A stretch of 64,000 bases of DNA, taken from the NCBI GenBank assembly GCA_001596135.1, contig CP014773.1:1054001-1118000 (forward strand), written 5' to 3'. Below the pieces are notes generated by a model, which saw only the letters and a list, made by a program, of their open reading frames with translations, ran no database searches and was not told where the DNA came from. Made by a program: the position numbers and the translations under genes. Positions 5,090 through 58,727 of the stretch are shown one piece after another. Each line of letters opens with the position of its first letter. The first letter of the stretch is position 1. The stretch is from Mucilaginibacter sp. PAMC 26640 (lineage in GTDB: Bacteria > Bacteroidota > Bacteroidia > Sphingobacteriales > Sphingobacteriaceae).

Positions 5090-5136
5090 AAAAAATCTTT
5101 AAAACAGCAAAGCCCCCTGATGGGCAGGGGGCCTTT
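5090..5136 (-). terminator. rho-independent terminator ending the tRNA-like transcript
   Basis: On the minus strand a very GC-rich hairpin (AGCCCCCTG at 5111–5119 against CAGGGGGCCT at 5125–5134, with one bulge) is followed by a T-rich stretch (TTTT at 5101–5104 and T6 near 5091–5096). It lies downstream of the two tRNA-like domains and faces the terminator of the converging beta-barrel gene, so it most simply ends the minus-strand RNA that starts near 5467. Confidence 0.7.
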
Positions 5137-5170
5137 ACTAACCAATTATAAACCTAAATTATGAGAAGAG

Positions 5171-5286
5171 CTGTAGGAGAAGGGGTCGAACCTCCACAGA
5201 GTGGTTATTCTTATTGCTAAGAGTTTCCCATATTCTCCGCCACCGCGACAAGGAGGTGTGTCTGCCAAAAATTTCACCATCCTACA
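5171..5286 (-). ncRNA. tRNA-like RNA, copy 1 (class II cloverleaf, GTC loop, long variable arm)
   Basis: Read on the minus strand, 5286–5172 folds as a tRNA: acceptor TGTAGGA/TCCTACA (7 bp), TG, D arm GTG…GGCAGA…CAC, one A, a 17-nt anticodon arm CCTCC-TTGTCGC-GGTGG with a central T·T mismatch, a variable arm of about 45 nt, then T arm GGAGG-TTCGACC-CCTTC. GTC occupies the anticodon position (5249–5247), with G at position 37. The base after the acceptor (5171) is G, like a Ser or Asp discriminator. No CCA is encoded. The D arm resembles tRNA-Leu/Ser. At 115 nt it is much longer than normal class II tRNAs (about 85–90). It is a tRNA-like gene of unknown role; normal decoding is doubtful because of the stem mismatch. 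Confidence 0.75.
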
Positions 5287-5316
5287 GGATAAAAACTAAA
5301 CCTTGCGTTTAGCGTG

Positions 5317-5428
5317 CTGTTGGGGAAGGGATCGAACCTTCACAGAGTGGTTAGCCCGCGTCGGGTTTCCCATATTCTCCGCCACCGGGACAAGGAGGTG
5401 TGTCTGCCAAAAATTTCACCACCCAACA
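5317..5428 (-). ncRNA. tRNA-like RNA, copy 2 (class II cloverleaf, GTC loop, long variable arm)
   Basis: 5428–5318 on the minus strand (111 nt) repeats the architecture of copy 1, which follows 31 bp downstream in the same transcript. The acceptor is TGTTGGG/CCCAACA, the T arm GAAGG-TTCGATC-CCTTC and the anticodon loop TTGTCCC (GTC at 5391–5389, but C at position 37, where decoding tRNAs have a purine). The variable arm has three nested stems: CGGAG/CTCTG, TGG/CCA and an apical CCCG/CGGG. The apical stem is TCTTA/TAAGA in copy 1, and acceptor and T stems also differ in a paired way. These compensatory changes show that the fold is selected. The D-loop, anticodon arm and the base of the variable arm are nearly invariant. 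Confidence 0.75.
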
Positions 5429-5473
5429 ATGTTTTTCTTTAAAGAACAACCAGCAATTGTCATTTGCTTTCTA

Positions 5474-5505
5474 CAAATCTAAAGGACTTTGCTATTCCTT
5501 GCAAA
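5474..5505 (-). promoter_or_regulatory. promoter of the tRNA-like transcript
   Basis: On the minus strand TTTG (5505–5502), a 20-nt spacer and TAGATTTG (5481–5474) match the Bacteroidota primary sigma promoter TTTG-N19/20-TAnnTTTG. The predicted start near 5467 gives a leader of about 40 nt before copy 2. The same promoter form precedes the canonical tRNA-Asp at 58637. Confidence 0.7.
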
Positions 5506-5578
5506 TATTTCAACAAAATATTTTTATTTTTACTTTAATTTTAATTAAACTTGTATTTGAATAAAGATATCTAAATAT

Positions 5579-6055
5579 ATGCCTCACAGGAAACCCCAAA
5601 ATTTAGAAATTGACAATCTTGACATCCAGATTCTGTCGATTTTGATGAAAAATGCAACAACTCCTTACACGGAGATCGCAAAAGAGTTGATCGTTTCCGG
5701 CGGAACTATCCACGTAAGGATGAAAAAGCTGGAAGAGCTGGGTGTAATTAAGGGTGCAAGCCTGGAAGTTAACCCGCAAAAGCTTGGTTATGACGTTACT
5801 GCCTTTTTGGGGATCTTCCTGGAAAAGGGATCACAATATAATGAAGCGGTTAAACAGCTGAAGATGGTGCCCGAAATTGTTGAGTTGCATTATACCACCG
5901 GCAGCTGGAGCATCTTCGCTAAAATTGTTTGCCACGATACCAATCACCTGCGCGAAGTGTTAAACGAGCAGATCCAGAGCGTAAAGGGGATTCAGCGCAC
6001 CGAAACGTTCATATCCCTGGAAGAAAGCATCAAAAGGCAGATCACTTTGGAATAA
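5579..6055 (+). CDS. Lrp/AsnC family transcriptional regulator
   Basis: 158 residues, the normal length for the family. N-terminal winged helix-turn-helix at about residues 10–60 (DNLDIQILSILMKNA…YTEIAKEL…GTIHVRMKKLEELGVIKGASLEVN), then the C-terminal RAM/AsnC ligand-binding domain (about 68–150, GYDVTAFLGIF…HYTTGSWSIFAKIVC). Such proteins form octamers and sense amino acids. It is divergent from the tRNA-like transcript with about 110 bp between predicted starts, so it could act on that promoter. A TGTATTTG box at 5552–5559 may be its own -7 element. Terminator at 6110–6151. Confidence 0.93.
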   Translation: MPHRKPQNLEIDNLDIQILSILMKNATTPYTEIAKELIVSGGTIHVRMKKLEELGVIKGASLEVNPQKLGYDVTAFLGIFLEKGSQYNEAVKQLKMVPEIVELHYTTGSWSIFAKIVCHDTNHLREVLNEQIQSVKGIQRTETFISLEESIKRQITLE

Positions 6056-13756: not shown

Positions 13757-14645
13757 AATGCTTCGTGCCTCAGCAAGACAATGTTGTCATCCTGACGAAG
13801 GAAGGATCTACTAAACGCCATGCACAGTGTGACGTGCGTGTCGGTTAACAGATGCTTCGTGCCTCAGCAAGACAAGGTTGTCATCCTGACGAAGGAAGGA
13901 TCTATTAAACGCCATGTATCATGTAACGTGCGTGTCGGTTAACAGATGCTTCGTTCCTCAGCAAGACCAATTTCTTTGTTTCCCCACCTTGTCATCCTGA
14001 CGAAGGAAGGATCCATTATGCGCCATGCTTAAGCGTTTCGGTTAACAGATGCTTCGTGCCTCAGCAAGACAAGGTTGTCATCCTGACGAAGGAAGGATCT
14101 ATTAAACGTCATGCATTGTGTGACGCGCGTGTTGGTTAACAGATGCTTCGTGCCTCAGCATGACAAGGTTGTCATCCTGACGAAGGAAGGATCTACTAAA
14201 CGCCATGCATTAAGCGTCTCTCGGTTAACAGATGCTTCGTTCCTCAGCAAGACAATTTCTTTGTTTCCCTACCTTGTCATCCTGACGAAGGAAGGATCTA
14301 CTATGCGCCATGCTTTAAGCGTTTCGGTTAACAGATGCTTCGTGCCTCGGCAAGACAAGGTTGTCATCCTGACGAAGGAAGGATCTGTTAAACGCCATGC
14401 ATCATGTAACGTGCGTTTCGGTTAACAGATGCTTCGTGCTTCAGCATGACAAGGTTGTCATCCTGACGAAGGAAGGATCCATTATGCGCCACGCTTTAAG
14501 CGTTTCGGTTAACAGATGCTTCGTGCCTCAGCATGACAAGGTTGTCATCCTGACGAAGGAAGGATCCATTATGCGCCATGCTTTAAGGTTTCGGTTAACA
14601 GATGCTTCGTGCCTCAGCATGACAAGGTTGTCATCCTGACGAAGC
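13757..14645. repeat. array of ten hairpin-forming direct repeats, 85–111 bp period
   Basis: The core GTCATCCTGACGAAG occurs ten times, starting at 13786, 13880, 13991, 14077, 14171, 14276, 14363, 14457, 14542 and 14630. Each core is preceded by a diverged inverted partner (CTTCGTGCCTCAGCAAGAC or GCATGAC forms), so every unit can fold into a stem of about 17–20 bp. Units end in AGGATC plus TAAACGCCATGC or TATGCGCCATGC and restart with GGTTAACAGATG. Two units (about 13945–14020 and 14230–14305) have an insertion with TTTCTTTGTTTCCC in the loop. There are no unique constant-length spacers, so this is not CRISPR. Open frames crossing the array are repeat artefacts. Another copy lies at 45360–45497. 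Confidence 0.9.
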
Positions 14646-58636: not shown

Positions 58637-58710
58637 GGAGTGGTAGTTCAGCTGGTTAGAATGCCTGCCTGTCACGCAGGAGGTCGCGGGTTCGAGTCCC
58701 GTCCATTCCG
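58637..58710 (+). tRNA. tRNA-Asp (GTC)
   Basis: 74 nt canonical cloverleaf: acceptor GGAGTGG/CCATTCC, D arm with AGCTGGTTAGA, anticodon arm CCTGC-CTGTCAC-GCAGG with GTC at 58671–58673, T arm CGGG-TTCGAGT-CCCG and discriminator G. No CCA encoded. It is flanked by its own promoter and terminator. It shares the GTC anticodon with the tRNA-like RNAs near 5.2–5.4 kb but has no sequence similarity to them outside general tRNA features. Confidence 0.97.
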
Positions 58711-58727
58711 CAACAAAGTGACAAACA

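Follow-up and report, generated by a model that had tools for sequence, protein, structure and literature searches.

A tRNA-like RNA of Bacteroidota and phages with a predicted role in tRNA-dependent asparagine synthesis

Two tRNA-like RNAs and their surroundings

The DNA analyzed in this study (the window, 64,000 nucleotides) was taken from the genome of Mucilaginibacter sp. PAMC 26640 (contig CP014773.1, positions 1,054,001 to 1,118,000 of the forward strand). Between positions 5171 and 5428, it holds two tandem tRNA-like RNAs with a GTC loop, both on the minus strand; a first-pass annotation had described them as such, and sequence and structure confirmed the description. Copy A (5317..5428, minus strand), the first in the transcript, measures 112 nt including N73 and was delineated by sequence, covariance model, and covariation. 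Copy B (5171..5286, minus strand; 116 nt) was delineated by sequence and covariance model. Both feature a 7-bp acceptor, a 3-bp D arm, a loop with GUC, a long variable arm of several stems, and a T arm of canonical form, and both have G10, U33, G73, and the pair U1-A72. The anticodon loops are UUGUCCC (copy A) and UUGUCGC (copy B), with C and G, respectively, at position 37. The covariance model was built from 23 sequences, the two copies being among its own seeds, and it scored copy A at 131.7 bits and copy B at 122.9 bits.

Paired changes had been claimed to separate the copies; they were seen at 4-69 (U-A in copy A, A-U in copy B), at 7-66 (G-C and A-U, respectively), and in the apical stem of the variable arm. 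The T.T mismatch noted in the anticodon stem (29.41) is real. It is identical in 66 distinct aligned sequences of the genus Mucilaginibacter (the alignment excluded copies in L021, L042, L043, and L044 that were partial or distant), and the same position is C-G in L043 and L044, which are members from other families. When folded as single sequences, the window copies showed no gain over shuffles (z = 0.11 and -0.47), and the structure was therefore judged by covariation.

Neither copy was reported by ARAGORN in the window, nor by Rfam, whether at the gathering score in the window or with a limit of E = 10 on a stretch of 601 bases. Both copies fell below the gathering score of the RF00005 tRNA model, with which the ordinary tRNA-Asp of the window scored 67.9. 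This tRNA-Asp(GUC) (58637..58711, plus strand; loop CUGUCAC with A37) was found by ARAGORN and Rfam, is the only tRNA that they report in the window, and was used as the decoding counterpart for comparison.

Opposite the RNA unit lies an asnC-like gene (5579..6055, plus strand) encoding a 158-aa regulator of the Lrp/AsnC type. Its best match among solved structures was E. coli AsnC (2cg4, E = 4.1e-38; Lrp, 4.2e-12). With the NCBIfam AsnC equivalog model, the window protein scored 180 bits, below the cut-off of 227 but far more than the 57 bits that it scored with the Lrp model. The intervening stretch (5429..5578, no strand assigned) was delimited as a putative shared divergent promoter region from the RNA-regulator distances in divergent pairs. 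It contains, ca. 45 nt upstream of copy A, the promoter-like site TTTG-N20-TAGATTTG (5474..5505, minus strand; recognized by sequence), which we take to be the form of the Bacteroidota promoter consensus; a sigma-70-type scan found nothing. Directly after copy B stands a trailer, CTCTTCTCATAA (5159..5170, minus strand), which in the genus alignment reappears behind many of the final copies, solitary ones included. A sequence scan placed an intrinsic terminator-like hairpin after copy B at 5109..5135 (minus strand). Elsewhere in the window, the reading frames at 14111-14639 derive from a repeated stretch (VILTKEGS..RHALSVS) and probably represent an array of DNA repeats, not genes.

Homologues in genomes and phages

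Of 60 genomes covered by a DNA search, 38 (the window's own included) gave a match, among them 36 of the 37 from the genus. With the covariance model, 127 of 201 Sphingobacteriaceae genomes (the window's family) proved to carry the RNA at scores above tRNA-Leu cross-matches, from which members were told by score and length; E below 1e-20 was taken as RNA-positive, and E above 1e-12 or no match was taken as RNA-negative. Searching 395 genomes of the class gave members in many families, and among 395 genomes of the phylum, 39 had the RNA at E no higher than 1e-11, including three that do not belong to the class; these large searches scored 9-18 candidates per genome, such that some RNA-negative genomes may be false negatives. 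A pattern scan of named genomes returned at least 80 loci, and all 80 listed hold the RNA. Named hosts among the matches listed were Mucilaginibacter, Pedobacter, Chitinophaga, Ferruginibacter, Saprospiraceae, Algoriphagus, Cyclobacterium, Dyadobacter, Spirosoma, and Fulvivirga. A search of plasmids at blastn sensitivity with one genomic member as the query gave no match. That no described family fits was upheld: Rfam returned no known family for the window copies and two long-armed members, and no description of such an RNA was seen among the open-access titles and abstract openings listed. At one locus (L088:7984-9601), five RNA copies stand in an array with ca. 370-nt spacing, and no AsnC was found in the fetched stretch.

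In the seed alignment, 95.2% of the cells were paired. Double-sided changes occurred at 8 pairs (5.2 in shuffles) and in 39 cells (13.7 in shuffles). Among 22 long-armed members, double-sided changes were present in 23 of 38 predicted pairs, including new variable-arm helices. Across 215 distinct members, most of which were fetched by pattern from loci among the matches listed, the variable region was 21-124 nt long and was laid out as a basal stem, a 3-bp stem, and an internal loop. The loop motifs were GAYAAA (111/215) and CUAA followed by C or G (145/215), and a distal UGACCA element was present in 73/215. The cloverleaf was kept, not lost, across families and phages. The fold of the RNA family is thus, by the covariation among its homologues, under selection, as the first-pass annotation had supposed from the two copies.

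The AsnC-like neighbor also recurs. A divergent Lrp/AsnC gene lies 126-262 bp away (measured from the RNA to the start of the match) in 51 of the 80 listed named loci, in 12 of 20 further loci, and in the window. Judged by similarity of the reading frame, an AsnC-like gene also stands beside the RNA in G086, G829 (a Pfam match), and G894, the latter two being outside the class. When 21 loci were compared for neighbors, an AsnC-like gene was present in 13, and no other recurring family was present in more than 4. In a different set of 13 loci, centered on asnA or an asnB of the NF006949 type, no AsnC was found beside these genes. In L093:8792-9698, the AsnC-like gene is flanked by an RNA copy on either side, and both copies lie on the other strand. 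For 63 of the 64 loci with a divergent AsnC, the intergenic stretches were scanned for promoters: the -7 box occurred in 44 (8.3 in mononucleotide shuffles), and the full promoter-like site occurred in 24 (0.37 in mononucleotide shuffles). The enrichment of promoters, along with the covariation and the conservation in many families and phages, argues against the notion that the RNAs are a decayed, functionless tRNA pair. The failure of single sequences to fold better than shuffles and the T.T mismatch would suit such decay, but the homologues and their covariation led us to reject it, and we accord it next to no probability.

The pattern used to scan the named genomes was also found in viral contigs, at no fewer than 80 loci. 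Among those listed, 78 have the RNA with a score of at least 63 bits; the remaining two scored 36 bits (cut by the contig end) and 41 bits. Eight proteins from viral loci were compared with known families. Six match phage head/packaging or DNA-metabolism families (terminase, portal, head, helicase, and others), one matches PhoH, and one matches nothing; at least the stretches holding the matched phage proteins are therefore, by their gene content, phage. A search of isolate phages at blastn sensitivity with one phage member as the query gave no match. AsnC was found in none of the fetched stretches around the 78 phage copies among the matches listed, suggesting that the functional component is the RNA itself. 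An ordinary tRNA-Asp was also present in 6 of 16 viral loci scanned for tRNAs, mostly within tRNA clusters. ARAGORN called seven short-armed members of the RNA family tRNA-Asp, and six of these loci are among the 16 scanned. Three of the phage members called in this way, L241:500-589, L251:3953-4047, and L282:2909-3003, have short variable arms (90-95 nt in total); all three keep U37, and L251 has G33.

Aspartate identity, amidation signal, and GatCAB

The major determinants of bacterial aspartyl-tRNA synthetase (AspRS) are G73, G34, U35, C36, and C38, with G10 as a further one, according to passages of PMC9976931. In the same passages, U1-A72 is required for the amidation of Asp-tRNA by the amidotransferase (AdT) GatCAB, and G1-C72 and U20a prevent it. 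The pattern by which most members were fetched fixed the anticodon and C38, admitted only U or G at position 33, and left position 37, N73, and the acceptor free; among the 215 members, G73 was found in 215, C38 in 215, GUC in 214, G2-C71 in 215, and U1-A72 in 211. In the 36 rows found by the model, GUC was present in 35 and C38 in all 36. The exception, L101:8149-8258, has UUC, the sole non-GUC anticodon among the 215, and an AsnC-like gene adjoins it. U20a was absent from 215/215, GGCA following the start of the D-loop with no U after G18G19. By the major determinants G34 U35 C36, C38, and G73, the members would fit as substrates of AspRS, which in the window genome is of the bacterial type, and by U1-A72 and the lack of U20a they would fit as substrates of GatCAB. 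The U1-A72 pair had been listed earlier as an oddity. It is indeed present, and it turns out to be a key feature, the amidotransferase signal, rather than a mere oddity.

The positions that support decoding present another picture. Position 37 is U in 175, C in 24, G in 15, and A in 1 of the members, and position 33 is U in 184, G in 22, and C in 9. In the ordinary tRNAs of the fetched loci, a purine was found at 37 in 268/272 and U33 in 268/272, and the loop of ordinary tRNA-Asp was CUGUCAC in 9/10. Since G73, GUC, and C38 are kept and 33 and 37 are altered, the main AspRS determinants are retained across the family while the decoding bases are mostly lost, and the earlier opinion that these are not ordinary decoders was sustained (purine 37 in 16/215). 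An unusual tRNA-Asp isoacceptor that still decodes would account for the GUC anticodon, the canonical T arm, and the seven ARAGORN calls. It would not accord with the pyrimidine at 37 in 199/215 or with the G or C at 33 in 31/215; moreover, such an RNA, if amidated, would place asparagine at Asp codons, and an ordinary tRNA-Asp accompanies the RNA in a number of phage stretches and is present at another place in the window. This explanation was accordingly deemed highly improbable.

The distribution of GatCAB was judged on gatB alone in a set of 80 genomes (45 RNA-positive, 35 RNA-negative), picked before the gene searches by RNA status, completeness, and family spread; G094, G433, G581, G087, G110, G074, G276, and G274 were left out of an initial list of 88. 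gatB was over the cut-off in 45/45 RNA-positive and 19/35 RNA-negative genomes. The idea that gatB is a universal gene was rejected, as 16 of the 35 RNA-negative genomes had none over the cut-off. Asparaginyl-tRNA synthetase (AsnRS) was present in 80/80, and glutaminyl-tRNA synthetase (GlnRS) was present in 29/45 RNA-positive and 18/35 RNA-negative genomes. Those lacking GlnRS had gatB in 33/33 cases, as expected for Gln-tRNA. Where GlnRS and AsnRS are both present, GatCAB is not needed for translation; in the GlnRS-containing genomes, gatB was found in 29/29 RNA-positive vs. 2/18 RNA-negative cases (Fisher p = 1e-10, shared ancestry ignored and the GlnRS split made after the gatB result was known). 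In the two exceptions (G047 and G279), frames of gatC and gatA size precede a gene in which gatB is joined to AspRS (L349:3304-6624, 1106 aa; L350:194-3526, 1110 aa), the AspRS part being complete and of the bacterial type. In our reading, this fusion is an alternative means of linking AspRS with GatCAB. The two genomes belong to one family, the RNA was not found in them, and a separate AspRS-sized frame is also present. In the family of the window, gatB was found in 125/127 RNA-positive and 14/74 RNA-negative genomes, and in one genus (g44), full gatB was found in 16/17 RNA-positive (G203 having a fragment) and 0/3 RNA-negative genomes.

These data also bear on the roles first proposed for the RNAs, namely aminoacyl donor, synthetase decoy, or regulator. 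A decoy or sensor would titrate AspRS or report Asp/Asn levels, and the RNA would be a regulator, not a substrate of synthesis. The retained AspRS identity, the lost decoding bases, the AsnC-like neighbor, and the carriage by phages are all consistent with such a function. It would, however, leave U1-A72 (211/215), the missing U20a, and the gatB contrast in GlnRS-containing genomes unexplained, and we regard it as quite improbable; of the roles first proposed, the aminoacyl donor stands as the best reading, and the decoy and the general regulator do not.

Predicted role and relation to known systems

The Asp anticodon and discriminator, the amidation signal in the acceptor, the decoding bases missing from most members, the tracking of GatCAB, and the AsnC-like neighbor together point to a dedicated Asp-to-Asn carrier. 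We thus predict, with a probability of about 0.75, that the RNA is a dedicated, non-decoding carrier of aspartate for tRNA-dependent asparagine synthesis. The AspRS identity set combined with the U1-A72 signal, the links to GatCAB and AsnC, and a role in asparagine synthesis were not foreseen in the first-pass annotation. In the proposed mechanism, transcription would start at a promoter belonging to the RNA, opposite asnC, and processing would leave a tRNA-like end. A bacterial-type AspRS would charge it with aspartate, because G34 U35 C36, C38, and G73 are present. GatCAB would then convert the Asp-RNA to Asn-RNA, because U1-A72 replaces the G1-C72 of tRNA-Asp and U20a is lacking; the gatB profile supports this step. 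The Asn-RNA would read no codons, because the decoding bases at 33 and 37 are lost and the variable arm is very large, and asparagine would thereby be kept out of Asp codons. Asparagine would be set free or passed on, and AsnRS would use it. In E. coli, AsnC activates asnA, and asparagine reduces or abolishes the activation, as described in passages of PMC8707732 and PMC4482635; the AsnC-like protein may likewise tune transcription of the RNA to asparagine. Phage copies, having no AsnC nearby, would raise the asparagine supply via the AspRS and GatCAB of the host.

The prediction that RNA-positive genomes lack asparagine synthetases was examined in the 80-genome set with the TIGR01536, AsnA, and NF006949 models. 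Lack of every such enzyme was not upheld. TIGR01536 proteins were over the cut-off in 39/45 RNA-positive genomes, that of the window included, and in 33/35 RNA-negative genomes; the RNA therefore need not be the sole route to asparagine. Many TIGR01536 proteins are presumably polysaccharide-cluster paralogues, and those found here may or may not make free asparagine. AsnA was over the cut-off in 3/45 RNA-positive and 4/35 RNA-negative genomes. AsnB of the NF006949 type (PRK09431, which we take to be the E. coli AsnB type), a model tried last, after the broader TIGR01536 had failed to separate the groups, was found in 0/45 RNA-positive and 9/35 RNA-negative genomes, and all nine lack full gatB. 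In six RNA-positive genomes, none of the three models was over its cut-off.

Several of the results weigh against a carrier for asparagine synthesis: the TIGR01536 proteins in RNA-positive genomes, the three RNA-positive genomes with AsnA, and the 14 RNA-negative genomes of the window's family that have gatB. To these are added two RNA-positive genomes without full gatB, G203 (a fragment) and G086 (none found; its RNA is intact and an AsnC-like gene is present), and the further Asp determinant G10, which is present in just 67/215 members. Also, no AsnC was found in the fetched stretch of 29 of the 80 listed named loci, although in at least four of these the fetched sequence breaks off too close to the RNA to include such a gene.

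A variant in which the bound Asn (or Asp) goes to another acceptor (a peptide, the cell wall, a lipid, or a small molecule) instead of becoming free asparagine shares the AspRS, GatCAB, and AsnC evidence. The asparagine-synthase-like proteins of RNA-positive genomes and the unexplained release step speak for it, as does the existence in staphylococci of dedicated donor tRNAs for peptidoglycan. No transferase was seen beside the RNA, though, since no family apart from the AsnC-like one exceeds 4 of the 21 loci compared, and the absence of NF006949-type AsnB from RNA-positive genomes points to asparagine supply; we consider this variant unlikely.

As for the wider proposal built on the asparagine carrier, we lean toward a new class of RNA gene that would, with AspRS and GatCAB, replace an asparagine synthetase gene, AsnC-like regulator included, and that phages of Bacteroidota would have acquired as an auxiliary metabolic RNA. 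If true, across Bacteroidota and their phages a dedicated RNA would do the work of a protein in a metabolic step, and the family is one that neither of the annotation tools applied to the window (ARAGORN and Rfam) picked up. The retention of GatCAB in Bacteroidota with GlnRS and AsnRS would be explained, asparagine could be made on RNA with no need for a non-discriminating AspRS and with no miscoding, and phages would gain an RNA that feeds the amino-acid supply.

With tRNA-Asp(GUC), the RNA shares G34 U35 C36, C38, G73, and G2-C71, and its commonest loop, CUGUCUC, differs from the CUGUCAC of ordinary tRNA-Asp only at position 37. It is unlike tRNA-Asp(GUC) in having U1-A72 rather than G1-C72, a mostly pyrimidine 37, a Leu/Ser-like D arm, no U20a, and its variable region of 21-124 nt. 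The staphylococcal cell-wall tRNA-Gly is likewise a dedicated, non-decoding donor tRNA specialized for an off-ribosome reaction; the amino acid, pathway, and structure are different here. The class II shape is shared with allo-tRNAs and tRNA-Sec with long variable arms (PMC7609411). The present RNA differs from these in its 7-bp acceptor, its 5-bp T stem, and its GUC anticodon. As in the E. coli AsnC/asnA pair (passages of PMC8707732 and PMC4482635), an AsnC regulator appears tied to an asparagine-making function; here, the pair is divergent at 126-262 bp, and the gene beside the regulator yields an RNA where E. coli has the enzyme AsnA. A close functional parallel would be asparagine synthesis on tRNA-Asn, which in Bdellovibrio, Deinococcus, and Thermus proceeds on a decoding tRNA-Asn with a non-discriminating AspRS, according to passages of PMC4206432; a survey described there counts Bacteroidetes bacteria among the genera that have no asparagine synthetase yet possess AsnRS, GlnRS, and GatCAB. 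That route likewise combines AspRS and GatCAB, the U1-A72 signal, and the presence of AsnRS and GlnRS. In the system proposed here, by contrast, the carrier would be a separate RNA, apparently unable to decode, and because it bears the Asp anticodon, a discriminating AspRS would do.
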